From NCBI GenBank assembly GCA_025056455.1, contig JANWVY010000006.1, positions 186,001 to 250,000 on the forward strand: DNA of 64,000 nt. The letters run 5' to 3'. The notes beneath the pieces were generated by a model. That model saw nothing but the letters and a program-made list of their open reading frames with translations. It searched no databases and was not told where the DNA came from. Below, piece by piece: positions 52,397-64,000 of the stretch. The stretch comes from Bryobacteraceae bacterium (GTDB lineage: Bacteria; Acidobacteriota; Terriglobia; Bryobacterales; Bryobacteraceae). Both the position numbers and the translations under genes were made by a program. How positions within the stretch are numbered: position 1 is the stretch's first letter; each line of letters begins with the position of its first letter.

Positions 52397-54927
52397 GCCA
52401 GGCTTCGATCGAAGAACTGCCGCGCCCCCTCCGGCATTGGTTTGAGGGGCGATTTCCAGCTGGACCCACGGCCATTCAACAACTTGCTCTACCGCACACC
52501 CTAGCGGGCGACAATACGCTGATTCTGGCCCCAACCGGTCACGGCAAGACGCTGGCAGCGTTTCTCTCTGTGTTGGCGAGACTAGCGGAACTAGGCGAGC
52601 GGTTGCCAAATGCGGTGTGCGCGATTTATGTCTCTCCTTTGCGATCCTTAACACGGGATGTGTTGCGCAACTTGTCCGAACCGCTGGAGGCAATCAACCG
52701 GGAGCTTAGCGAACGGCGTAAAATCCGGATGGAGGTCCGGACGGGGGACACAGCGGCGGGCGAACGCAGTCGCCAGCAGCGCAAACGGCCACACCTTCTC
52801 CTCACGACTCCGGAAAGTCTCAGTTCCCTTCTTTCGCAAAGCGCCTTTCACGACGGCCTCGATCCAGCAGTCGTGATTGCGGACGAGATCCATGCGCTTG
52901 CGGAAAACAAGCGCGGCACGCTGCTGGCCTTGGCGTTGGAACGGCTGGAGCATCGGGCCCGAGGGCCACTCCAGCGACTTGGGTTGTCGGCTACAGCCTG
53001 GCCAGTGGAAACGGTGATTCGATTCCTTTGCGGGCAGCGCCCTTGTGCCGTAGCGATGGTCGATCAACGGAAGGCGCACCGGCTCGAAATCGTGGTTCCG
53101 CCAGAGGATCACCCGCTGCCACCCGCTGGTTTCAACCCTTACCGCGTGGCTCAGCCCGTTGCCGACCTGGTGGAGCGTGCCCGATGCTCACTGGTTTTCA
53201 CCTCCACGCGCTCGGCCGCGGAGCGGCTAGGACTGGCGCTCAAAATTCTGCTGCCCCAATACGATGAGCAGATTGCCGTGCATCATGGCTCCATTGAGAA
53301 GGACGAACGGTTCGAAATTGAAGAAGGTCTGGCTACAGGGCGATGGAAAGCGGTGGTTTGCAGCACAAGCTTGGAGCTGGGTGTCGATTTTCAAGCCGTG
53401 GACCAAGTCCTTTTGATTGGCGCGCCGCGTGGGGTTTCCCGAGCCTTGCAGCGACTTGGCCGCAGCGGGCATCGAGTGGACGGCGTGGCCGCAGGCGCAC
53501 TTGTACCGCTCAGTCTGCCCGATTTGGCTGAATGCGTAGCGTTGCGTCGCGCGGCAGATCAAGGGCGCTGGGATGAGCTTCGCGTGCCGCGGGCTCCTCT
53601 AGACGTCTTGGCTCAGGTGTTACTAGGTATGGCGGTGGAACGGGTCTGGTCGCTCGATGAAGCCTACGAACTCGTGCGTGGAGCCGGTCCCTACCTCGAT
53701 CTCCCACGCCAAGATTTTGACCGGGTGATCGAGTATCTAGCTGGCGGCGGCGCCGTGCTCGGGCCTTCTGGACGTTACGGCAAGATTGTTGTCACGCAGG
53801 GCAGATTTCGCATCGCTTCCCCGAAAATCGCTCGGATGTACTACGCCAACATTGGCGCCATTAGCGACGACACGCAAATCAAGGTGGTGACAGAAGGCAA
53901 CCGTTACCTTGGGGCGGTTGAAGATGCTTTCCTGTCGAGCCTCCAGCCGGGTGAAGCTTTTATTCTGGGCGGTAAGACGGTGCGCGTCAAAAGCTACTAT
54001 CAGAACCTGGCCATCGTGGAGCCGGCGCGAGGCGAGCAAGTGAAGACGCCGCGTTGGATGGGCGGCAAGATGCCGCTCTCAGCGCAGCTTGCTGCCGAGC
54101 AGTTGCGTTTACGGCGGGATCTACGTCAGGCCTGGCAGCGGGGCGGCTTCGACGCCTGCGTGTCGGTGCTAGAGACCTGCTGGAGTCTCGATCGAGCGGC
54201 GGCCGAACGGCTGGCCCGTTACGTCGAGCGCCAGCAACGTGCCTTTCCCATCCCCGTGGATACGCCGGTCGCCATCGAACGCCTGCGCCAGCGCCGCGCA
54301 GAGCTCCTGTTGTTCCACGTGGTGGCAGGACGTGAAGTAAACCGCGCCTTGGCTTTTGTCGTGAGCCACCGCCTGGCGTTGGCCGGTAGTGTCGTGGCCA
54401 ACTTCGATGACCACGGATTCCTGTTATCCATTGACAAGAAGGCGTCTCCTTCCGAGAGCCAGCTACGCCAAAGCTTTCATCCCGACAACTGGCGCGCGGA
54501 CCTGCGCGCAGCGCTGGAGGCCAACGAAGCATTAGGAAGGAAATTTCGCGGTGTCGCCGAAACGGGCCACTTGATTCCCAAGCGCTCGCTCCGCGGGCCT
54601 GTTTCTTCCAAGTCATCTACTTGGAGCAGCGCGCTGCTATATAAAACGTTGCTGAAATACGAACCCGATCATCCTCTGGTGCGGGAAGCGGTGCGAGAGG
54701 CCATGGAGGACCAGATCGACGCCGAGCGCGCCGAGAAAGAGAGCCAGCGAATTTACGCTGCGCCTTGGGAGATCTATGAGCTTCCGCGTCCGTCGCCCTT
54801 TGCTCTGCCTCTATTTGCCCTCTTCAACCGGGAAGTGGTGCAAGCGGCTGATCCGGATCGAGCGCTCGACGACTACGTGGCCGCAGCCTATGACGAGTGG
54901 CAGGAAGGAGACCGGAGTTCGCTGTGA
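52393..54927 (+). CDS. Lhr-type DEXH-box helicase (Lhr-Core, ligase-associated)
   Basis: Superfamily 2 helicase of 844 residues. Walker A is APTGHGKT (46-53) and motif II is DEIH (164-167). Motifs V and VI appear in TSLELGVDFQAVDQVLL and LQRLGRSGHRVDG. The winged-helix and Lhr-specific C-terminal domains follow. Lhr-Core proteins unwind RNA-DNA and DNA duplexes in the 3'-5' direction; the ligase-linked family was studied in Pseudomonas putida. GTG 52393 overlaps the ligase stop and a GTG at 54924 overlaps its own stop, showing tight coupling. Confidence 0.93.
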   Translation: MSQASIEELPRPLRHWFEGRFPAGPTAIQQLALPHTLAGDNTLILAPTGHGKTLAAFLSVLARLAELGERLPNAVCAIYVSPLRSLTRDVLRNLSEPLEAINRELSERRKIRMEVRTGDTAAGERSRQQRKRPHLLLTTPESLSSLLSQSAFHDGLDPAVVIADEIHALAENKRGTLLALALERLEHRARGPLQRLGLSATAWPVETVIRFLCGQRPCAVAMVDQRKAHRLEIVVPPEDHPLPPAGFNPYRVAQPVADLVERARCSLVFTSTRSAAERLGLALKILLPQYDEQIAVHHGSIEKDERFEIEEGLATGRWKAVVCSTSLELGVDFQAVDQVLLIGAPRGVSRALQRLGRSGHRVDGVAAGALVPLSLPDLAECVALRRAADQGRWDELRVPRAPLDVLAQVLLGMAVERVWSLDEAYELVRGAGPYLDLPRQDFDRVIEYLAGGGAVLGPSGRYGKIVVTQGRFRIASPKIARMYYANIGAISDDTQIKVVTEGNRYLGAVEDAFLSSLQPGEAFILGGKTVRVKSYYQNLAIVEPARGEQVKTPRWMGGKMPLSAQLAAEQLRLRRDLRQAWQRGGFDACVSVLETCWSLDRAAAERLARYVERQQRAFPIPVDTPVAIERLRQRRAELLLFHVVAGREVNRALAFVVSHRLALAGSVVANFDDHGFLLSIDKKASPSESQLRQSFHPDNWRADLRAALEANEALGRKFRGVAETGHLIPKRSLRGPVSSKSSTWSSALLYKTLLKYEPDHPLVREAVREAMEDQIDAERAEKESQRIYAAPWEIYELPRPSPFALPLFALFNREVVQAADPDRALDDYVAAAYDEWQEGDRSSL

Positions 54928-55697
54928 GCCGTTTGGTGGAAATTGCTCGGGGGATCTGGGCGCATGCTTCGGGGGCGCTGTGGCTGGAGCTAATTCGAAC
55001 CTTGGTGATTGCCGACGCTCATCTTGGCTACGGGTGGGCTATGCGGCGCCGCGGCCAACTTGGTCCACTGCGGGACGAGGAGACGATTGCGAAGCTGCGC
55101 GGCACGGTGGAGGAGCTCACTCCGAGCGCAACGGTGTTTCTGGGCGATCTGGTGCATGCGCCGCGCCCCACACCAGAAGAAGGGGAACTCTTGCAAGCGG
55201 TCTTCGAGTGGTTGGCGAGCCGCACCCGTTTGATTCTTGTGGAAGGCAACCATGACCGGGGTTTTCGCCGTGACTTTGGCCATGTGGGTTTCGAAATTTG
55301 CCGGGAATGGAAGCGCGGCGAAGTTTGCGCGATCCACGGTGACCGGGCTGAGCTCAACCTGCCTGCCCACCATCTCATCGTCGGCCATTTTCATCCCACT
55401 CTTGGTCTCCGCGATGCGGCTGGAGCCCTTCACCGCTTGCCGGTCTTCCTGCACGATTCCAAGGCGACGGTACTGCCAGCTTTTTCACCGTTTGCTGCGG
55501 GGTGCGATGTACGCGAGGGAGTGCCTGAGCAAATGCTGTCGCTGTTTTCTTCATCGGAAGTAGCCGTCTTCGCCGTGACGGGCAGGCAAGTCAAAGCGCT
55601 AGGCTCTACTCGTCTGCGGTGCAGCGGCCGGGCAAGTGCGGCTGCGAGATCCTCAGATAACAAGGAAGAGGGACCGCAGAAGCGGCGTTTGGCTTGA
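54924..55697 (+). CDS. pdeM: Ligase-associated metallophosphoesterase (PdeM type)
   Basis: Calcineurin-like nuclease of about 257 residues. Metal motifs are DAH (31-33), GDLVH (74-78), GNHD (108-111), IHGD and GHFHP (154-158). Manganese-dependent endonuclease activity is known for the family. The start is taken as GTG 54924, which overlaps the helicase stop as GTGA; ATG 54897 would overlap by 31 bases. The C-terminal 40 residues are basic, low in complexity and not part of the fold. A strong hairpin covers its stop codon. Confidence 0.9.
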   Translation: MSRLVEIARGIWAHASGALWLELIRTLVIADAHLGYGWAMRRRGQLGPLRDEETIAKLRGTVEELTPSATVFLGDLVHAPRPTPEEGELLQAVFEWLASRTRLILVEGNHDRGFRRDFGHVGFEICREWKRGEVCAIHGDRAELNLPAHHLIVGHFHPTLGLRDAAGALHRLPVFLHDSKATVLPAFSPFAAGCDVREGVPEQMLSLFSSSEVAVFAVTGRQVKALGSTRLRCSGRASAAARSSDNKEEGPQKRRLA

Positions 55698-55720
55698 GCC
55701 TAGGGCTCCGCCAAACGCCG
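55683..55720 (+). terminator. Large hairpin spanning the repair-operon stop codon
   Basis: CGGCGTTTGGC (55683-55693) pairs perfectly with GCCAAACGCCG (55710-55720). An inner stem GAGCC/GGCTC (55696-55700 with 55704-55708) closes on a TAG loop. The pdeM stop (55695-55697) sits inside. Only AAAA follows, not a T-run, so rho-independent termination is uncertain, but position and stability favour an end-of-operon element. Confidence 0.55.
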
Positions 55721-55922
55721 AAAACGCATGGCGCTTGCCCCAAACGGCGCGCCCCGCTGGAGCTGTAGCCATGAACGCCCGCCGTCTGGAGACCGGCGAA
55801 CGAACGGTTGCACCTACCGCTAGGGATCGGTTGAAGGGCCGGGTGGCTTTAGAGCGAGGAAGCAGATGTGTTGGCGGCTCCCTACGCCCCCAGCTTGCCC
55901 TGCGTGATACGATCCAAGGTTG

Positions 55923-56804
55923 ATGAAGCACGCTGAATTCACCCGCCGCCAAGTTTTCCGCTCGCTGTTCGCCTTTCCAGTCGCAACCTCCCTGCAGGCT
56001 GCTATTGATTCGACGGTCCGCGGGGTCATGATCGGGGCCCAGAGCTACAGCTTCCGCGACCGCTCGCTGGATGACGCCATTCAGGCGATGCAGGAGATTG
56101 GGCTCGGATTTTGTGAGCTGTGGAGCGGACACGTCGAGCCCACCAGCACGCCTCAGAAGCGCATCCCGCGCGAGGAGATTCGCATGTGGCGCAAGACGGT
56201 TTCGCTCGATCATTTCCGTCAAGTCCGGGAGAAGTTTCGTCGAGCAGGAATCGTGCTCTACGCCTATAACTACAGTTTCCGCGATGACTTCGATGAGCAG
56301 GAGATTGCACGGGGCTTTGAATTCGCCAAGGCTCTGGGCGTGCAGGCGCTAACGGCGTCCTCCAACGTCTCGACGGCCAAACGCATCGATCCCTACGCGC
56401 GCAAGGCCAAGGTGCCCGTCGGCATGCACAACCACTCCCGCATTACGCCCAATGAGTTTGCTACGCCCGAAGACTTCGAGCAAGCCATGCGCGGCATGTC
56501 GCGATATATTGCCGTTAATCTCGACATCGGCCACTTTACCGCAGCGAACTTCGACCCCGTGTCGTTTCTCGAAAAACATCACAAAAGCGTTGTCACTTTG
56601 CACATTAAGGACCGCAAGAAGGATCAAGGTCCGAATGTGCCATTTGGCGAGGGTGACACCAAGATCAAGGAAGTGCTCCAATTGCTCCGGGACAAAAAAT
56701 GGAAGATCCCGGCCATGATCGAGTATGAGTATAAGGGCGCGGATACGGTGGCCGAAGTCCGACGCTGCTATGAGTATTGCCGCAAGGTGTTAGAGAAGGC
56801 GTAA
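55923..56804 (+). CDS. Exported sugar phosphate isomerase/epimerase-like protein
   Basis: TIM-barrel protein (AP endonuclease 2 superfamily) of about 293 residues. The N-terminus has [21 protein letters not shown], a twin-arginine-like signal. The barrel contains [50 protein letters not shown] and HIKDRKKD, with His, Glu and Asp residues of a likely metal site. The family includes xylose-isomerase-like and inosose-related enzymes; the substrate is unknown. TTG 55920 is an in-frame alternative one codon upstream; ATG 55923 is chosen. Confidence 0.85.
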
Positions 56805-56862
56805 GGGTAAATTTCCGAATGCATCTAAGGGGTGTGCAGGTCTAGGGGCCAGGCCTTCGCCG

Positions 56863-56878
56863 CCGGGCAAAGGCCCGG
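56863..56878 (+). promoter_or_regulatory. Small perfect hairpin before the pyrE-like gene
   Basis: CCGGGC (56863-56868) pairs with GCCCGG (56873-56878) across an AAAG loop, 19 bases before the next start codon. It could terminate upstream transcription or attenuate the downstream gene; pyrimidine genes are often controlled this way, but nothing here proves it. Confidence 0.3.
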
Positions 56879-56897
56879 GGGGAGCTACACTGAAGGC

Positions 56898-57512
56898 ATG
56901 GACCTCGTTCCTTCCCAACAGGACGTCATCAAGTTACTGGAGCAAACCGGCGCCTTGCGGCGGGGCCACTTTGTTTATCCCAACGGCCTCCACGCCGATG
57001 AATACCTCCAGGTGTCGCTTGCCATGCGGCACTATGAACATCTCAAAACCTTGAGTGTCGGCTTGAGCCGCAAGGTGAGACAAAACCCAGAATTGCGGGC
57101 CATGATTCCACAGTTATCCATCGTGGCGCCAGCGGGGGGTGGTGTGCCAGTGGCCTACGGCGTGTGCGAGGCCTTACGCGCCAAGCAGGTCTATTGGGCG
57201 GAATCGAATGGTGAGGATACGCCCCTGCACTTCCGGCAATATTTCGTAAGCCAGCCGGGCGAAAAGGTGCTTCTAGTGGATGACATCTTTCGTTCGGGAA
57301 AGCGACTCAGCGAATTGAAGTCGCTTGTTGAGGCGAACGGGGGCGAAGTGGTTGGACTGGCGGTGATGGTGTATCAACCAACGCCTCGCACGCCGGATTT
57401 CGGCAACCTTCCTTTGTTCTATCTTGCCAAGCTCGACGCCCACTATTCCAATGATGCAGATTCTTGTCTGTTGTGCCGCCAGGGTTTGCCGCTGGAAACC
57501 GTGTGGGTGTGA
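56898..57512 (+). CDS. PyrE-type phosphoribosyltransferase
   Basis: About 204 residues with the phosphoribosyltransferase fold. The PRPP-binding loop is VLLVDDIFRSGKRLSELKSL, a variant of the canonical DDxxTxG. The N-terminus (LLEQTGALRRGHFVYPNG, HADEYLQVSLAM) matches orotate phosphoribosyltransferase. The C-terminal SCLLCRQGLPLETV has a Cys pair also seen in some PyrE proteins. It is likely the orotate enzyme of pyrimidine synthesis, though the loop change leaves room for a related base. ATG 56898 is preferred to the upstream frame start. Confidence 0.85.
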   Translation: MDLVPSQQDVIKLLEQTGALRRGHFVYPNGLHADEYLQVSLAMRHYEHLKTLSVGLSRKVRQNPELRAMIPQLSIVAPAGGGVPVAYGVCEALRAKQVYWAESNGEDTPLHFRQYFVSQPGEKVLLVDDIFRSGKRLSELKSLVEANGGEVVGLAVMVYQPTPRTPDFGNLPLFYLAKLDAHYSNDADSCLLCRQGLPLETVWV

Positions 57513-57565
57513 AGCGGGTGAAGAGATGTTCTTGCGCACGCCTGGGCCAGGCATGCCGTGCACAG

Positions 57566-57595
57566 CCGCCTCGAGAGTTTTCTGTCGAGCAGCGG
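57566..57595. terminator. Possible bidirectional terminator between convergent genes
   Basis: CCGC-CTCGA (57566-57574) pairs with TCGAG and GCGG (57585-57589 and 57592-57595) with a two-base bulge, between the stops of the PyrE-type and GmhA genes. There is a short T-run inside the loop rather than after the stem. Confidence 0.4.
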
Positions 57596-57608
57596 TTCTA
57601 GGACAAGA

Positions 57609-58172
57609 TCAGCACTTTCCGTCAGCGTCCATAAAGTAGTAACAGATCATGTGGCAAATGATCATGTGGGCATCTTCGATGCGGCCCATGTGCGGGTTGG
57701 GCACGTGGATGTTGAGCTTCGAGAGCGCCGCCAGCTTACCTCCGTCTCGCCCGGTCAGCCCAATCGTCTCACAGCCAATGGAGTTGGCGTATTCAATCGC
57801 GCGCAAGACATTCGGCGAGTTGCCGGACCCGCTGATGCCCATGACCAGATCGCCGGGGCGAGCAAAATTTTTCAACTGCTCCACGAAGACCGCCTCGTAG
57901 GCGACGTCATTGGAATAGGCCGTGATGGTGGGCATGGAGTCCGTGAGGGCCTGAATGCGAAAGCGTTTCTGTCGGTTGAAGCTGGCGCCCTTGACCATGT
58001 CGCACACAAAGTGGGAGGCAGTGGCGGCGCTGCCCCCATTGCCGCACACGAAGATTTGCCGGTCGCGGGCGCGCGCTTCGGCAAACATGTCGATGGCCTT
58101 CTGAACCAGGGCGGTATCGATCAAGTGAAGGGTTTTGAGGCAATCCTGCCGGTAAGCTTCGGGAAAACTCAC
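57609..58172 (-). CDS. gmhA: Sedoheptulose-7-phosphate isomerase (GmhA-like)
   Basis: SIS-domain protein of 187 residues. The sugar-phosphate site is FVCGNGGSAATASHFVCD, with MGISGSGNSPNVLRAIEYA downstream and the C-terminal MGRIEDAHMIICHMICYYF typical of GmhA. The family converts sedoheptulose-7-phosphate to D-glycero-D-manno-heptose-7-phosphate, the first step of heptose synthesis. The frame runs upstream into the ROK gene, but GTG 58172 gives the right length and lies 10 bases after AAGGAG (58183-58188). It is the last gene of a five-gene operon. Confidence 0.9.
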   Translation of the reverse strand: MSFPEAYRQDCLKTLHLIDTALVQKAIDMFAEARARDRQIFVCGNGGSAATASHFVCDMVKGASFNRQKRFRIQALTDSMPTITAYSNDVAYEAVFVEQLKNFARPGDLVMGISGSGNSPNVLRAIEYANSIGCETIGLTGRDGGKLAALSKLNIHVPNPHMGRIEDAHMIICHMICYYFMDADGKC

Positions 58173-58173
58173 G

Positions 58174-59055
58174 TTACAAACACTCCTTGTTTTCCATTCT
58201 TGCTTGCTTGAGGCGCGCCAGCGCGGCTGCTCCCCATAAGACGGAATCATCGCCTAAGGCAGCCGGCTGGATGTCGATCCGTGCGCGCGACCAGTTTGTG
58301 ATCTGGCGGCGTAGTTCTGCGCGGAGGGGGGAAAACAGCCGATCTCCGGCCTTGCTGATGCCGCCGCCAATGACGATGCGGGAAGGATTGAGCAGCATGA
58401 TGCAGGACTTCAGACCGAGCGCCAAGTCCACGACGTATCGCTCGACAAAGTCTGGACGAGCAAATAATTCTGCTGCGGGCATCCCATAGTCCCGCTCGAG
58501 CCACAGCCCGGCGCACATCCGCTCCAAGCATCCCTGGCTGCCACACAGGCAAGGTGGGCCGCCGGGGCGCACCGTGAGATGTCCAATTTCCCCGGCGTAG
58601 CTGTCGGCGCCGCGCAGGATCTCTCCACCGGAAACGATTCCGCCCCCGATGCCCGTGGACAGCGTCATGTAGAAGAGTGGGTCCCTGTGGCGGCCAGCGC
58701 CGTAGAGAAATTCTCCGAGCGCCCCCGCGTTCGCATCGTTGTCCAGAACGGAGGCCAGGCCTAGCTCCTTTTGTGTCCAGGAGGGGAAATCAAAGTCCTG
58801 CCATCCGCCAACGTGCGTTGAGCACGCTACGCGCTGCCGGGCGAAATCCACAGGGCCGCCAAAGCCGACGCCGCAGCGATCGAACGAGGCTTGCTGTTTC
58901 CACGCAGCCACGATCCGGGCGACCTGCTCCAGCATCCAGTCGCGTCCGGCTTCGCGGTTGGTGGCAGCAGAGTGGCGCAAGACCAGGCGATCGCCATCGA
59001 AGGCGGCGAGGGTGAACTTAGTTCCTCCAATGTCAATGGCGAGCGTGTAACTCAT
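58174..59055 (-). CDS. ROK-family sugar kinase
   Basis: About 293 residues. The ATP-phosphate motif is IDIGGTKFTLAAFD at the N-terminus. The sugar-binding HLTVRPGGPPCLCGSQGCLE contains the zinc-binding CxCGxxGCxE signature of ROK kinases. GVGFGGPVDFARQRV and GTGIGGGIV are also typical. The sugar is unknown; glucose or N-acetylmannosamine kinases are the closest known roles. ATG 59055 overlaps the stop of the next gene upstream as ATGA. The context (GmhA, HldA-like kinase, HAD) suggests a heptose-related substrate. Confidence 0.9.
   Translation of the reverse strand: MSYTLAIDIGGTKFTLAAFDGDRLVLRHSAATNREAGRDWMLEQVARIVAAWKQQASFDRCGVGFGGPVDFARQRVACSTHVGGWQDFDFPSWTQKELGLASVLDNDANAGALGEFLYGAGRHRDPLFYMTLSTGIGGGIVSGGEILRGADSYAGEIGHLTVRPGGPPCLCGSQGCLERMCAGLWLERDYGMPAAELFARPDFVERYVVDLALGLKSCIMLLNPSRIVIGGGISKAGDRLFSPLRAELRRQITNWSRARIDIQPAALGDDSVLWGAAALARLKQARMENKECL
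58183..58188 (-). promoter_or_regulatory. Shine-Dalgarno site that sets the gmhA start
   Basis: AAGGAG on the minus strand, inside the end of the ROK gene, 10 bases before GTG 58172. It supports a short intergenic, coupled start for gmhA rather than the longer open frame. Confidence 0.6.
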
Positions 59056-60047
59056 AGCAGTCGCCGGGCAGCCTCCTGCACCTCGTCTGGGGTTGCCGTG
59101 CCTGTGCCTTTTTTCATGATTGTGACCGAAGCCACCAGGTTTCCCAGCGTGACCGCCCAAGCGGCGTTGCGGCAAACGCTGAAGGCGAGGGCCGCTCCGG
59201 CCGAGAAGCTATCTCCGGCGCCACAGATATCGACCGGATGTTCAACGGGATGAGTAGGAATCCAAGATTGCTGGCCATCCTGGACGATGACCGCTCCTTT
59301 TGGTCCCAGAGTCACGACTAGCAGCGGGCCGCCAATGAGCGCTTGCAGCTGCACATAATCCACGCGGCCCAAGGCCCGCAAACAGGCTTCCGCAGCTTCC
59401 TCTTCGTTCGGCTTCACGATGACGCCGCGGAAGAGTTCGGGTCGGCGCCGCGAATCCACCCATACTACAGTCGCTGGAGAGGACCGCGCAAAGTGGGCAA
59501 TCTCGTTTCGAACGGCTTCTGTCACGACGCCGCCAGCGCCCGTTTCGGCTTGGTCGGAAACGAGGATGACGTCAAATGTTGGAGCGGCCTGGCGAAACCG
59601 GACCAGAAACTGCTCTTCCAGATGCGTCGGCAGGGGAGCAGTATTGATGAAATCCACGCGCGGCTTGTCTTCTGCGCCAGTCTCGCGGTTGAGCAATTTA
59701 GTGTAGGTGAAGGTGTTCCATTCACGGGTGAACAGGCAGAGCGAATGGTCGATTTGACGGCGGGCGAGCGCTTGACGTAATTCGTATCCATGGCCATCAT
59801 CGCCGAGGATTCCGAGCACTGCGACCTTACCAGCGCCGAGGGCCGCCAAATTGTTTGCCACGGTTCCGCCAGCTCCTGGCGTGGTCTCGGTGGTAAGGAC
59901 GGCGATGCGCGGGATGCCCGTTTCGCGCGAAGGTTCGGCTTCTGCTGGATCGTAGCGGCACCAGCGGTCGAGACAGATGTCGCCGATCACAAGTGCGCGC
60001 TGGGAAGCAAACTGTTTGAGTACGCTTTCAACGTCTTTTGCCGTCAC
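59052..60047 (-). CDS. PfkB kinase, HldA-like (heptose-7-phosphate kinase type)
   Basis: About 331 residues, PfkB family. GDICLDRWCRYDPAEAEPS and the following PGAGGTVANNLAALGAGKV resemble the HldE kinase domain, and the C-terminal DICGAGDSFSAGAALAF supplies the anion hole and catalytic Asp. No nucleotidyltransferase domain is attached, unlike E. coli HldE. In context it probably phosphorylates the heptose made by GmhA. GTG 60047 overlaps the stop of the upstream gene as GTGA; the open frame to 60104 is rejected. Confidence 0.85.
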   Translation of the reverse strand: MTAKDVESVLKQFASQRALVIGDICLDRWCRYDPAEAEPSRETGIPRIAVLTTETTPGAGGTVANNLAALGAGKVAVLGILGDDGHGYELRQALARRQIDHSLCLFTREWNTFTYTKLLNRETGAEDKPRVDFINTAPLPTHLEEQFLVRFRQAAPTFDVILVSDQAETGAGGVVTEAVRNEIAHFARSSPATVVWVDSRRRPELFRGVIVKPNEEEAAEACLRALGRVDYVQLQALIGGPLLVVTLGPKGAVIVQDGQQSWIPTHPVEHPVDICGAGDSFSAGAALAFSVCRNAAWAVTLGNLVASVTIMKKGTGTATPDEVQEAARRLL

Positions 60048-61012
60048 AGCGCCTCCAGCACGGCCTTTCGCAAGGCGGGCAGCGTCGCTCGGTGATCCCC
60101 GCAAAAATAGAAGCTTTCCCCGCCGTCGGCCACCGTTCGGACCAAGATGGTCTTATGCGGCCGGAAGTAGTAGCCAGGATCGGATTTCGGCAGCTCCCGA
60201 TGGATGTTGCCTTGAATCGGCACTAGGTCGAAGACCGCCGTTGTGAAGCGCTGAATCCGGCGACCCTGTTGATGGGCGACATTGCGAGCCATGGCCAGCG
60301 CTTTGAGATACACCTCGGGGGCCATGATGGCAGAGCCAAAACAGAGCAGCACACCTCCCTGCAAGTTCTCCACGGCACGGGCGAAGATCAGGAAGTCCCG
60401 GTAGCTAGTTGCTCCGAAAGCTGCGCCGTCGCAGTTGGGATGCTCATGGAGGATGTCATATCCAATGCCGATGTGCACGGTTGCGGGAACGGCTGTGCGG
60501 TAGGCCGCCGCTAGTACGCTCAAATCTTTGTACGGGAATTTGCTTTCCAGGAGGCGCTGGCCGACAGCCTCGCCAAGTCCTAGCTCTTCGGCCGCGGCCT
60601 GGCGTACCCAGTCGTTTAATTCTCCCGTTTCTTTCCACAAGCCAAACTCGCCGGAACGAATGTATCGCGCCACGCTTTCGGTCGTGGCTCCGATGCGCGC
60701 TAGCTCGTAATCGTGGATCACTCCAGCGCCATTCATCGCGATGTGGCTGACGAGCCCCCTTTCCATCAGGTCGATGAGGTGGCGGTTGACACCGGCTCGG
60801 AGCACGTGGGCGCCCATCATCAGGATCCGTGCGGCCGCCGCCTGCTTGGCAGCCACAAGACTGGCGGCGACTTTCGACAAGTCCGGGTGTGAGAACTCTG
60901 GCGTTGGATCATCGAGTGCGAGCCACCGCCCGAGACTTAAATCGTGGACGCGTTCGGCCAGGGGCGCAAGGCGCAGGCGTGTGCGGTCAAACTGAGGATA
61001 GCGGGACGGCAT
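60044..61012 (-). CDS. Deoxyhypusine-synthase-like NAD-fold protein, function unknown
   Basis: This 322-residue protein has a Rossmann-like region MMGAHVLRAGVNRHLIDLME followed by GLVSHIAMNGAGVIHDYELA, which recalls deoxyhypusine synthase, and a second conserved region HIGIGYDILHEHPNCDGAAF. The lysine-containing motif of true deoxyhypusine synthase is not seen, and bacteria lack eIF5A, so that reaction is unlikely. ATG 61012 follows the HAD stop by 7 bases. Its position between a phosphatase and a heptose-type kinase points to sugar-phosphate chemistry. I cannot assign the reaction. Confidence 0.8.
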   Translation of the reverse strand: MPSRYPQFDRTRLRLAPLAERVHDLSLGRWLALDDPTPEFSHPDLSKVAASLVAAKQAAAARILMMGAHVLRAGVNRHLIDLMERGLVSHIAMNGAGVIHDYELARIGATTESVARYIRSGEFGLWKETGELNDWVRQAAAEELGLGEAVGQRLLESKFPYKDLSVLAAAYRTAVPATVHIGIGYDILHEHPNCDGAAFGATSYRDFLIFARAVENLQGGVLLCFGSAIMAPEVYLKALAMARNVAHQQGRRIQRFTTAVFDLVPIQGNIHRELPKSDPGYYFRPHKTILVRTVADGGESFYFCGDHRATLPALRKAVLEAL

Positions 61013-61019
61013 CAGGCTG

Positions 61020-61829
61020 CTAACATTCGTTTGGGAACAACAGCTCCTGAAGCTGGGGCAGCGGAAGATAGTTGGCTACGATGTAATCTGCTCCCACTTT
61101 GACCAGCCGCTCGCGCTTCCAAGCATCAATGCGCTGGCAGTGGGGCTCTTCGGTGGCGACTCCCACTGCAACGCCGCCCACCTGCTTCACGTTCTCGATT
61201 TCCACAAAACCGTCGCCAAAGCCTAGGAACTCCTCGCCTTTGGCCTCCGCCGCTTGAATGATGCGCTGAATTAGGATGGCCTTGGAAAAGGACTTGTAAT
61301 CGTCGAGTGCGCCCCAGCAGCCGCCGTCAAAGTAACGGGCAATGTCAAGCAGCCGAGCTTCCTCTTTCATGTCTTGATCATCGGTTCCGCTGGCCAGGTA
61401 AAGCTTCAAGCCGCGTTGCCGGAGTGATTCGAGCAGCGCGCGAGAGCCTGGAACGAGGTACTGCTCAGGCGAGGCCTCACCGGAGCGCAGCGCTTCCACG
61501 CGATCGCGAATCTTCGTCCACAGGAGATCTAAATAGCGGCGTTTGTAAACCAGGGGATCTTCGGGTTTACCGCCACGCTTGGCAACTTGCTCAGCGAGCT
61601 CAATCATCTGATAGATGGTGTCCTTGCCGGTCAGCCGGCCCACATAGTCACGGACAATTTCGGTGAGCTCGGCCTCGCTTTCCCCGGTCTTCAAACTCGC
61701 CAGTACCTCCACCATCATGGGCACCATGGTCTCGACCCAGCCTGAGCGAATGAGCGAGAGCGTGCCATCAAAGTCAAACAAGACGACGCGCGCACGGCTT
61801 GCGGGCACGCGGTTGATAATTTCAATCAT
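61020..61829 (-). CDS. HAD-family phosphatase
   Basis: This 269-residue haloacid dehalogenase protein has the nucleophile motif FDFDGTLSLIR, an alpha-helical cap (about 40-120), motif II YLASGTDD, motif III Lys in DDYKSFSKA and motif IV GFGDGFVEIENV. It resembles beta-phosphoglucomutase or phosphoglycolate phosphatase types rather than the classical GmhB. It may dephosphorylate the heptose bisphosphate made by the kinase in this operon. It is the first gene of the five-gene unit; no clear promoter was found in the 96 bases upstream. Confidence 0.85.
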   Translation of the reverse strand: MIEIINRVPASRARVVLFDFDGTLSLIRSGWVETMVPMMVEVLASLKTGESEAELTEIVRDYVGRLTGKDTIYQMIELAEQVAKRGGKPEDPLVYKRRYLDLLWTKIRDRVEALRSGEASPEQYLVPGSRALLESLRQRGLKLYLASGTDDQDMKEEARLLDIARYFDGGCWGALDDYKSFSKAILIQRIIQAAEAKGEEFLGFGDGFVEIENVKQVGGVAVGVATEEPHCQRIDAWKRERLVKVGADYIVANYLPLPQLQELLFPNEC

Positions 61830-61925
61830 TCCTTTTTACGGCGCCCGGAACTAAGGACCATGAAGAGAGACACAAGCAGGCGTGCTTTCCGGACGCAAGT
61901 CCCTCGCGCCATTTTCGCACGCTGG

Positions 61926-62588
61926 TCACCAATACTGCCATTTACCGGCTATCCACACGTAGGCGGACAGGCAGAGATTGGTGACTGCATGGGCCAAGAT
62001 ACAATCTCCAAGGCTTTTTGTTTTCACCATCCACCAGTTGTAAGCGACGCCGGCGAGGAACCCGACCTCCCAGTAGGAACCATGTTCGAGAGCAAACAAT
62101 ACGGCGACGATCCAGAAGGCCTGAGCCGAGTATTGACCAAGCGGAACTGATTCAAACTCGGGCCGGATGAGCCAGCGCATCAGCCAGGCTCGCCAGAAAA
62201 GTTCTTCCACAATTGGCACGAGGATGACTGCGCGTATAGCCCGAAACAACAAAGTGTGCCAGGGCAGGGAAGCATAGCCAGAGGCGGGGACCGGGGCTGC
62301 TCCGAGGATGGGATTGGCAAATAGCCAGTGTTTGCGCCAAGTGGGCGCCAGCGTGTCCGGCGCAATCCAGACCACAAACACAAGAATTCCAAGCAGAATC
62401 GAACCGCTCCAGTGGGGAGCGCGCAAGCTAATGACGCGCCGCGAAACAAACCAAAGCAACAGCGACAGGAGCACTACCCGTAGCGGGTATTCCACTTCAG
62501 GAGGTATCCCGAGTTTGCCGTCCAGGGACAAGAAAACCAGGAACGCAGCAAACGGAAGGACGTAAGGCAGCGAGGGATGGGTGTTCAT
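61926..62588 (-). CDS. CPBP-type intramembrane protease (CAAX protease-related, exosortase-linked type)
   Basis: Integral membrane protein of 220 residues with about seven hydrophobic helices. The active-site motifs of the CPBP family are present: IVEELFWRAWL (Glu128-Glu129), FALEHGSYW (His169) and HAVTNLCLS (His200, Asn204). The length and the SLPW and LAPTWRKHW segments fit the CAAX-protease-related family associated with exosortase/PEP-CTERM systems. No exosortase gene is in this window. It lies 59 bases from the TPR gene upstream on the same strand. Confidence 0.82.
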   Translation of the reverse strand: MNTHPSLPYVLPFAAFLVFLSLDGKLGIPPEVEYPLRVVLLSLLLWFVSRRVISLRAPHWSGSILLGILVFVVWIAPDTLAPTWRKHWLFANPILGAAPVPASGYASLPWHTLLFRAIRAVILVPIVEELFWRAWLMRWLIRPEFESVPLGQYSAQAFWIVAVLFALEHGSYWEVGFLAGVAYNWWMVKTKSLGDCILAHAVTNLCLSAYVWIAGKWQYW

Positions 62589-62646
62589 TTTGGTGAGGGT
62601 GAGCCGAAAAAACCGCCTTTTGCTGGTCGCTCCAATTCAAACCGGA

Positions 62647-64000
62647 CTAAATCCGGCTCAGCAATTCGCGAATGCGTTCCTCGTCTCGCTTGGACGGTTT
62701 GTTACGCAGCGCTTCTTCGGCTTCTTTCCGGGCCGCAGGTTTGTCGCCTTTTTGCGCCAGCGCGACAGCGAGATGGTAGCGATAAATTGGGTTTTTTTGG
62801 TCCTTGTTCACGATTTCGCGCAGGATCTGAATGGCGTTGTCGCTGAGATTCTTCTTAACGAAGATGTAGGCAAGGGTGTCGGCAATGTCCGGATGATGTG
62901 GGAACTTGGCTTTCGCCCTTTGGGCCAAGGTCAGGGCCTGGTCAAGGTCGCCGCCGTATTCCGCAATGTAATACGCCAGGTTATTCAGCGCCACCGCATT
63001 GTCGGGCTCGAGCTTCAAGATTTGCTCGTAGAGCGGTTTGGCGTCCTGCGGGCGGCCCTCGCCTTCATAAAGCAAGGCCAGCGGGACATAGGCTGCCGCA
63101 TCATTGGGGTTGAGCTCCTTGGCCTTTTCATACTCGGCGATTGATGTCTTTAGGTCTCCCTTTCGCCGGTAGGTTTCCGCCAGGCGGATTTGCACGTCGA
63201 AGTTCTTGGGGTTCTTTTCGAGCAGTTTGCGATATTCGCCGATGGCCAGGTCGTACTGCTGGGCCTCAACGGCCGTGTTGGCGAGCGCTAGGCGGTAGAA
63301 AGAGCGTTGCGGATTGACCTTCAAGTCTTCCTGGAGTAGCCGGATCGCCTCGTCGAACTTCTTGAGACCTTGAAGGGTCTGTACTTTCCCAAGGAGGCCG
63401 CGCGGATCGTTCGGCGCGACCTTTTGTAAGCGCTCGAAATTGGCGATGGCCTCGTCGTAACGTTTCTCTTGGTAGTTCAGTACGCCCATTTGGAAAAGGG
63501 CGTCTGGGTAGTCCGGGCTGAGCGCCAGAAGCTGCGTGAGTTCCTGGCGCGCCGTGGGACGGTCGCCGAGTCCCATGCGAGCACCCGTGCGGATCATCTG
63601 CGCCGTGATGTTGCTGCTGTCATATTGCAGAATCTCTTCGGCGGCCTGAAGCGCTTTGGTGAACTCGTTTTTAGCCAGGTGCAGCTGCGCGATCGCAATC
63701 CGCGCTGGGGTATAGTCCGGGCGGTATTTGATGGCTTCCTGGAATTGGATTCGAGCCTGTTCAAGATCGCCCTTGGCCACGTAGGCGCGGCCCAAATTGT
63801 AGCGAAGGACCACGTTTTCCGGTTGCCGGACGATCACCGAGTTGAGCTCGGAGATGGCAGTTTGCACCTTATCGCGGCTGCCGTCCTGCAGCCACAACGA
63901 GGCGCGCATGGCCGTGGCCTCGTAGTCGTTGGGGTTTTCCTTGATCACTTGCGAGACCAGATCGAGCGCTTCGGCGCTGCGCCCTCGAAGCACCAAGGTT
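62647..64000 (-). CDS. Large TPR-repeat protein, C-terminal part
   Basis: At least 450 residues remain; the frame is open to the right edge, so the start is missing. The visible part is about 12 tandem TPR units, for example NVVLRYNLGRAYVAKGDLEQA, ARIAIAQLHLAKNEFTKALQA, PDALFQMGVLNYQEKRYDEA and AVALNNLAYYIAEYGGDLDQA, ending with a charged KRDEERIRELLSRI tail. Such proteins are common in acidobacterial envelope and PEP-CTERM-linked gene sets, which fits the neighbouring CAAX-protease-like gene, but its function is not shown. Confidence 0.85.
   Translation of the reverse strand, partial: TLVLRGRSAEALDLVSQVIKENPNDYEATAMRASLWLQDGSRDKVQTAISELNSVIVRQPENVVLRYNLGRAYVAKGDLEQARIQFQEAIKYRPDYTPARIAIAQLHLAKNEFTKALQAAEEILQYDSSNITAQMIRTGARMGLGDRPTARQELTQLLALSPDYPDALFQMGVLNYQEKRYDEAIANFERLQKVAPNDPRGLLGKVQTLQGLKKFDEAIRLLQEDLKVNPQRSFYRLALANTAVEAQQYDLAIGEYRKLLEKNPKNFDVQIRLAETYRRKGDLKTSIAEYEKAKELNPNDAAAYVPLALLYEGEGRPQDAKPLYEQILKLEPDNAVALNNLAYYIAEYGGDLDQALTLAQRAKAKFPHHPDIADTLAYIFVKKNLSDNAIQILREIVNKDQKNPIYRYHLAVALAQKGDKPAARKEAEEALRNKPSKRDEERIRELLSRI

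Follow-up and report, generated by a model that had tools for sequence, protein, structure and literature searches.

One of the known systems closest to the operon treated here is ADP-heptose (adenosine diphosphate heptose) synthesis, a pathway served by GmhA, HldA or HldE, GmhB, HldC and HldD. The zinc ligands of GmhA are His61, Glu65, Gln175 and His183, as given in the available part of the source (PMC5387315). For Geobacter, a single table on electrode growth lists GSU2085 (hldE) at -3.1, GSU2086 at -3.2 and GSU2087 (gmhA) at -3.7, in the part of the publication that was available (PMC5585712). A five-gene operon with a GmhA-like isomerase, an HldA-like kinase and a protein of the GSU2086 family was analyzed in a stretch of 64,000 nucleotides from a Bryobacteraceae bacterium (GenBank assembly GCA_025056455.1, contig JANWVY010000006.1, positions 186,001 to 250,000; hereafter the window). 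We consider the chances about even that this operon encodes a variant heptose-type sugar-phosphate pathway in which the GSU2086-family protein acts as a hidden-redox sugar-phosphate epimerase. The window is part of an assembly of 4.98 Mb that is 98.9% complete. The host is a soil bacterium, and its closest relatives in the genome contigs are labelled as Acidobacteria, Bryobacterales, Bryobacteraceae and Solibacter metagenome-assembled genomes.

Conservation of the operon

Five open reading frames, all on the minus strand, occupy positions 57609-61829 in the operon order HAD phosphatase, GSU2086-family protein (gene 2), PfkB kinase, ROK kinase and SIS isomerase (Table 1). Their junctions are, in this order, a 7-base gap, a GTGA overlap of 4 bases, an ATGA overlap of 4 bases and a 1-base gap, which bears out the close packing noted in a preliminary description of this DNA. 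A scan of genome contigs yielded 584 confirmed relatives, of which the best 80 were kept as the closest loci. In 70 of these loci HAD immediately precedes gene 2 on its upstream side, and in 72 PfkB immediately follows it downstream; both neighbours were present in 66, so that the linkage of this core is not due to chance. The fetched loci themselves served to build the mapping models, which is favourable for detection; adjacency is independent of the models. Both neighbours flank gene 2 in 47 of the 52 loci from Acidobacteria (L053-L104) and in 19 of the 28 loci from Planctomycetota, Armatimonadota, Chloroflexi, Omnitrophota, Acetothermia, Latescibacteria, Poribacteria and others (L105-L132). 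In 23 of the 80 loci the whole set of five genes lies in a stretch of at most 6.5 kb.

The GSU2086 proteins separate into three clades, A, B and C, in a midpoint-rooted FastTree phylogeny, with a support of 0.92 for A together with loci L178 and L180, 0.957 for B together with L124 and 1.0 for C. Gene 2 belongs to clade A. Among 61 genomes, that of the host included, A-clade orthologs occur in 45 and the operon-type PfkB in 48. The two genes go together in 44 of the 45 A-clade carriers and are at most 300 bases apart in 43; in the carrier without PfkB (G014) the GSU2086 gene is located at a contig end. PfkB without an A-clade gene was seen in G013, G015, G018 and G039 (64% complete). A SIS gene is located at most 4 kb from the A-clade gene in 35 of the 45 carriers. 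These data support the HAD-GSU2086-PfkB core as one conserved unit; this is less firm for ROK and SIS. The single-pathway reading of the preliminary description is thus supported for the core, and for PfkB beside gene 2 in particular, but not to the same extent for ROK and SIS, which are less constant.

The metal site of the isomerase

The nearest solved chain to the SIS protein is the GmhA structure 5i01 (E 4.5e-32), and HldA (4e84, E 4e-13) is the only solved chain found for the PfkB protein at E 1e-10. With the curated models, however, the SIS protein scored 125.8 bits against TIGR00441 (GmhA), under the cut-off of 209.45, and the PfkB protein 139 bits against TIGR02198 (HldA/HldE kinase domain), under the cut-off of 345. 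The names GmhA and HldA, given earlier to the two proteins, apply in the sense of nearest solved chains and not by score. The four GmhA zinc ligands correspond to His, Asp, Glu and His (HDEH) in the SIS protein of the window, and two of the four ligands of the ordinary HEQH type are thus changed. The HDEH set recurs in 39 distinct SIS sequences that have a same-strand GSU2086 gene, scored as clade A, nearby, and its first half is present in three further A-linked sequences that are cut. Exceptions among the A-linked isomerases are an HEQH copy more than 1 kb away in L083 and the fused GmhA of L124, seen as two partial rows; the GSU2086 domain of this fusion is labelled A by score, yet is B-like on the tree. 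The isomerase in L084 is of the HEQH type and lies on the other strand. All seven isomerases near B-clade genes are HEQH, and the nine isomerases with no GSU2086 gene in reach comprise six HDEH, one HDQH and two HEQH. The counts near A and B genes indicate that clade A pairs with the variant isomerase and clade B with the ordinary type.

Apparent replacement of gene 2 in three genomes

In G013, G015 and G018 the HAD, PfkB and ROK genes are kept, with no room for a GSU2086 gene between HAD and PfkB. The SIS gene adjoins in two of these genomes and is located elsewhere in G015. All three carry a distant C-clade GSU2086 paralog at unlinked sites, and the split-match pattern of this clade is confined to them among the 61 genomes. 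Residues S113 and W126 are common to A and C and are found in none of 25 B-clade sequences, while H90, M230, Y282 and K287, also common to A and C, are found in one of 25 each; clade C consists of only 3 sequences, from one family. The presence of the C-clade paralog in genomes lacking gene 2, together with the residues common to A and C, suggests that the two proteins share one function, on which the operon depends. The PfkB tree did not settle whether G013, G015 and G018 have a single-clade origin. A fusion of HAD and GSU2086 was suspected in L131 and rejected, as the HAD is in another frame.

Family and fold of the gene 2 protein

The gene 2 protein is a member of the NCBIfam GSU2086 family, with a match over residues 7-316 to NF052581 (curated cut-off 250; score in Table 1), and had no Pfam match at E 0.001. 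Its score against the Pfam DS (deoxyhypusine synthase) model was below threshold (11.1 bits, cut-off 27, E 0.23), and deoxyhypusine synthase was rejected as its function on this ground. An AlphaFold model built from 48 sequences had a predicted local distance difference test score (pLDDT) of 93.3. Among the top rows of a Foldseek search with this model were 6lrg (AgrE with ornithine and nicotinamide adenine dinucleotide, NAD+), 7cmc (deoxyhypusine synthase), 6juy (ArgZ) and 3c2q, with template modelling (TM) scores of about 0.5, identities of 11-15% and root mean square deviations (rmsd) of about 5 or more; over the best 50 of 815 rows identities were 9-16% and rmsd values 5-11. The deoxyhypusine synthase 7cmc matched with E 3.8e-7, a TM score of about 0.5 and an rmsd above 6 and agreed in overall fold. 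Structure prediction thus bore out the deoxyhypusine-synthase-like character ascribed to this protein before, as a distant fold of that type. Profile comparison of the family gave deoxyhypusine synthases a probability of 93.8% over 258 columns and TIGR00300 cyclodeaminases 94.0% over 118 columns; with other settings the values were 76% and 95-96%, respectively. Since these probabilities are nearly equal, homology alone does not choose the cofactor. Residue K287 is present in 48 of 48 A-clade sequences, and the profile alignment to deoxyhypusine synthase is gapped there. The catalytic lysine motif of deoxyhypusine synthase is not placeable with certainty in the gene 2 protein. As judged from the models, the protein would be distantly related to deoxyhypusine synthase and to the ornithine cyclodeaminase domain of ArgZ/AgrE. 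No functional account of the GSU2086 family was found in the one open literature collection that was searched.

The host genome harbours a second GSU2086 gene, of clade B, with neighbours that resemble uvrA on one side and a CAAX protease on the other when judged by eye; the CAAX-protease-like gene after this paralog is at L033:8524-9285. It also has a separate DS-family gene (G000:C26:81093-82025) and a TIGR00300 ornithine cyclodeaminase gene (L149:8916-10154, 526 bits).

Association with LarC

TIGR00300 is named nickel-pincer-nucleotide-dependent in NCBIfam; a literature basis for this name was not found in the same open collection. About 15% of the genomes analysed in one study have larB, larE and larC without larA, and a nickel-pincer protein other than LarA is expected according to the available part of the source (PMC11796402). 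The possible use of this cofactor was approached with LarC (PF01969) alone in a phylum sample of 297 genomes, in which LarC was found in 211 and the GSU2086 family over its cut-off in 93. LarC is present in 90 of the 93 GSU2086 carriers versus 121 of the 204 other genomes, and in 59 of 61 carriers versus 111 of 194 others among genomes without the TIGR00300 cyclodeaminase. Genomes G189 and G341, with partial GSU2086 matches below cut-off, and those with weaker matches were counted as non-carriers; when these two were dropped the latter comparison became 59 of 61 versus 109 of 192. The three carriers without LarC are G072 (75% complete), G309 (81%) and G236 (98%). Carriers fetched from the phylum sample are mostly of clade B.

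Controls were performed with 99 genomes for which the listing of families was complete, kinship being handled by family counts only. Here LarC was found in 25 of 26 carriers versus 42 of 73 others (p 0.0002) and, counted by family, in 19 of 20 versus 18 of 30 (p 0.0075); the link persisted when genome size was taken into account (p 0.001). DS-family genes, used as a control, were found in 20 of 26 versus 49 of 73 (p 0.46; by family p 0.52) when four genomes whose sole DS match is the GSU2086 gene itself were counted negative. With these four counted positive p was 0.018, and this weaker control slightly lowers the odds of the nickel-pincer reading. The host genome has a LarC gene (G000:C23:27043-28146, 469.8 bits; L198:6912-8186), which is over the cut-offs of both TIGR00299 and NF052512. 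A LarC-type gene is located inside the Ornatilinea operon (L124:10063-11247), with 130 bits for NF052512 (cut-off 50) and 39 bits for TIGR00299, below its cut-off of 90. LarC adjoining GSU2086 as a general rule was rejected: in tblastn searches with two LarC queries only L124 emerged among the fetched GSU2086 loci. By-eye comparison, uncounted, showed LarC and GSU2086 on separate contigs or 36 kb or more apart among the matches listed. Within the fetched loci a motif search revealed no genes of the LarE type. At L171:15451-15999 a LarB gene, truncated where the locus ends, lies some 7.6 kb away from a GSU2086 gene of clade B; it was not taken as evidence. It is a tentative proposal, with the odds somewhat against it, that proteins of the GSU2086 family use the nickel-pincer nucleotide although they are not LarA, acting as a nickel-dependent sugar-phosphate epimerase in heptose-type pathways. 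If true, it would provide one answer to the genomes with larB, larE and larC that lack larA.

Gene context in other lineages

A GmhA-type gene was found within the fetched stretch in 7 of 24 B-clade loci; it directly adjoins GSU2086 in L167, L172 and L173, and an HldA-like kinase lies between the two in L174. On plasmid pDCAR1 of Solidesulfovibrio carbinolicus, transketolase and sialic-acid-type genes adjoin a group made up of a fused nucleotidyltransferase-PfkB gene, an A-clade GSU2086 gene and a SIS gene of the variant type. Locus L180 resembles it in having a fused nucleotidyltransferase-PfkB next to A-clade GSU2086 and SIS genes, with transketolase halves and an alcohol dehydrogenase in addition. 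On a Chloroflexota plasmid, ABC transporter genes are found with Gfo/Idh/MocA, HAD, GSU2086, kinase and SIS genes. In Ornatilinea apprima (L124) one strand carries, in order, HAD, A-clade GSU2086, PfkB, the LarC-type gene and ROK, and the opposite strand ABC sugar-transporter genes and a GSU2086-GmhA fusion of 566 amino acids (L124:1837-3534).

Several operon copies have further members. A phosphofructokinase gene (PF00365) is located between ROK and HAD at L178:5638-6918, and an adenosine deaminase gene occupies the same place in a Chloroflexi copy (L114:5952-7007). A gene with a glutamine-amidotransferase domain (PF13537) follows PfkB at L130:10147-11544, possibly a hint of an amino sugar.

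Operon proteins and neighbouring genes

The PfkB, ROK and SIS proteins reach the Pfam gathering scores of their superfamilies (Table 1). The nearest solved chain to the ROK protein is the glucokinase 3vov (E 1.8e-44). The HAD model (AlphaFold, pLDDT 92.5) resembles beta-phosphoglucomutase-type and other HADs, and the only solved chain found for the protein was 3kbb, with E 0.003. NCBIfam includes a GmhB model; at E 0.01 the HAD protein matched TIGR02253, TIGR01681 and TIGR00099 alone in this collection, all below cut-off, and no GmhB model. A HAD phosphatase had been counted among the first steps of heptose synthesis; for the HAD of the operon these results correct that assignment. No transporters were detected, by eye or with Pfam, among the open reading frames of window positions 54000-64000.

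Table 1 Genes of the operon and its upstream neighbour, in operon order; boundaries are those of likely starts
Feature	Position in window	Strand	Match
HAD-family phosphatase, 269 amino acids, first gene	61020..61829	-	PF00702 53.5 bits
GSU2086-family protein (A clade), 322 amino acids, gene 2	60044..61012	-	NF052581 386.9 bits
PfkB-family sugar kinase, HldA-like, GTG start	59052..60047	-	PF00294 102 bits
ROK-family sugar kinase	58174..59055	-	PF00480 188 bits
SIS-domain sugar-phosphate isomerase, GmhA-like, GTG start, variant metal site	57609..58172	-	PF13580 77 bits
CAAX-protease-type gene, just upstream of the operon; also upstream of it in 13 of 29 relatives' loci L004-L032 (some contigs cut)	61926..62588	-	PF02517

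Proposed pathway and alternative explanations

In the proposed pathway the ROK kinase would phosphorylate a free sugar, or feed in a salvaged one, and the SIS isomerase would interconvert ketose and aldose phosphates. The PfkB kinase would add a phosphate at C1, and the HAD phosphatase would take off the terminal phosphate, so that a sugar 1-phosphate remains. With its fold of a nicotinamide-cofactor enzyme, the GSU2086-family protein would most likely alter a stereocentre of one of these sugar phosphates by taking a hydride and then returning it, a hidden redox reaction for which the cofactor would be either NAD+ or the nickel-pincer nucleotide. Activation of the product could fall to an HldC-like nucleotidyltransferase whose gene lies elsewhere. 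The absence of such an enzyme, reported in the preliminary description, is correct for the operon but not for the genome, in which an HldC-like gene (G000:C24:119391-119807) scored 179.5 bits, just below the cut-off of 181.5. A stand-alone HldC-like gene of the host (L141:9308-9820) is located directly before a gene read by eye as mfd, and the arrangement is similar in L144, from another genus.

A number of observations weigh against this pathway. Among the 80 closest loci ROK is nearby in 35 and SIS in 30, some contigs being cut, and the HAD or PfkB neighbour is missing in 14. Ten of the 45 A-clade carriers have no SIS gene up to 4 kb from the A-clade gene, perhaps due to contig breaks in some; most of these ten have SIS on another contig, and G055 has none. 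In G019 it is 2.1 Mb away from the HAD-GSU2086-PfkB unit, beside a second PfkB copy (G019:C1:6400594-6402952). Conversely, G030 (a 3.2-kb contig) and G035 have a SIS gene without an A-clade gene. The C-clade genes stand alone, and as their three genomes come from one family the replacement may represent one or two events. No GmhA-type gene is nearby in 17 of the 24 B-clade loci. The PDB resemblances of gene 2, as given above for the best 50 of 815 rows, are distant, and the SIS, PfkB and ROK proteins are under every specific NCBIfam cut-off listed for them. Furthermore, genes of sugar ABC transporters adjoin the Chloroflexota copies, a setting that fits salvage no worse than synthesis.

The operon might instead take part in ordinary ADP-heptose synthesis with dispersed genes, in which the SIS protein would be the sedoheptulose-7-phosphate isomerase, PfkB would be HldA, HAD would replace GmhB and a distant HldC-like enzyme would finish the route, with GSU2086 and ROK as accessories. 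It would fit that the SIS protein is the sole match to the gmhA model in its own genome, which also has four Glyco_transf_9 (heptosyltransferase-type) matches over cut-off, and that HldC-like genes score 168-185 bits in 20 of 21 genomes, the host included, and match weakly in the 21st (G037). However, HldC is kept in G012, a genome with neither the A-clade gene nor the operon-type PfkB whose GmhA comes closer to the cut-off, and no HldD is over cut-off (best 119 versus 274.6 bits). The variant zinc site of the isomerase and the distance of kinase and isomerase from their curated cut-offs also speak against this route, which we consider rather unlikely. The heptose reading is borne out only in part, and a plain start of ADP-heptose synthesis is not supported in view of the missed cut-offs, the two changed zinc ligands and the lack of a GmhB match. 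Salvage or catabolism is likewise considered rather unlikely; in this case ROK would phosphorylate an imported or recycled unusual sugar, which after isomerisation, epimerisation and a second phosphorylation would enter central metabolism. The Chloroflexota copies occur with ABC sugar-transporter genes (permeases named by eye in L114 and L124), and some with a Gfo/Idh/MocA dehydrogenase, a ROK-type regulator or adenosine deaminase, as would be expected for salvage; the lack of a transporter around the window operon, the fused nucleotidyltransferase-kinases of the Solidesulfovibrio and L180 copies and the sialic-acid-type genes in Solidesulfovibrio would not.

Modification of a protein or polyamine by the GSU2086 protein, in the manner of deoxyhypusine synthase and with a linkage to sugar genes that is genetic only, is very improbable. 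The fold and profile similarity to deoxyhypusine synthase could be explained in this way, and eight GSU2086 genes of the phylum sample, two of them in clade B, reach the Pfam DS cut-off when frame pieces are summed. The window protein, however, is below that cut-off, a separate DS-family gene is present in the genome, and the linkage to sugar isomerases recurs across phyla, including one fusion. If the variant heptose-type pathway with its epimerase is correct, a function would be assigned to a widespread unnamed protein family, and an isomerase-kinase pair for making or recycling an unknown sugar would be present in Acidobacteria, Planctomycetota, Chloroflexota and at least one Desulfovibrio relative.

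Comparison with known systems

Deoxyhypusine synthase shares its overall fold and a distant profile similarity with the gene 2 protein, while the DS score of the latter is below cut-off. ArgZ/AgrE and the TIGR00300 cyclodeaminases are alike in fold and in a segment with an HD-x-E motif; they differ in sharing about 11-14% identity in structure alignments, in the lack of a full-length match and in genome context. The lactate racemase superfamily of LarA has in common the proposed hidden-redox chemistry and the association with LarC, but LarA is not among the best 50 of 815 Foldseek rows for gene 2, and no direct comparison with LarA was made.

ADP-heptose synthesis is similar in its GmhA-like SIS isomerase, HldA-like PfkB kinase, HAD phosphatase and HldC-like gene located elsewhere. 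It differs from the window system, in which the isomerase has two zinc ligands changed, the HAD is without a GmhB match, no HldD is over cut-off, and a ROK kinase and a GSU2086 protein are added. In the Geobacter cluster GSU2085-GSU2087 the kinase is annotated as HldE with an adenylyltransferase, whereas the window operon is without a nucleotidyltransferase and adds HAD and ROK. As far as the available part of the publication describes the cluster (PMC5585712), it is alike in placing a member of the GSU2086 family between a heptose-type kinase and an isomerase.

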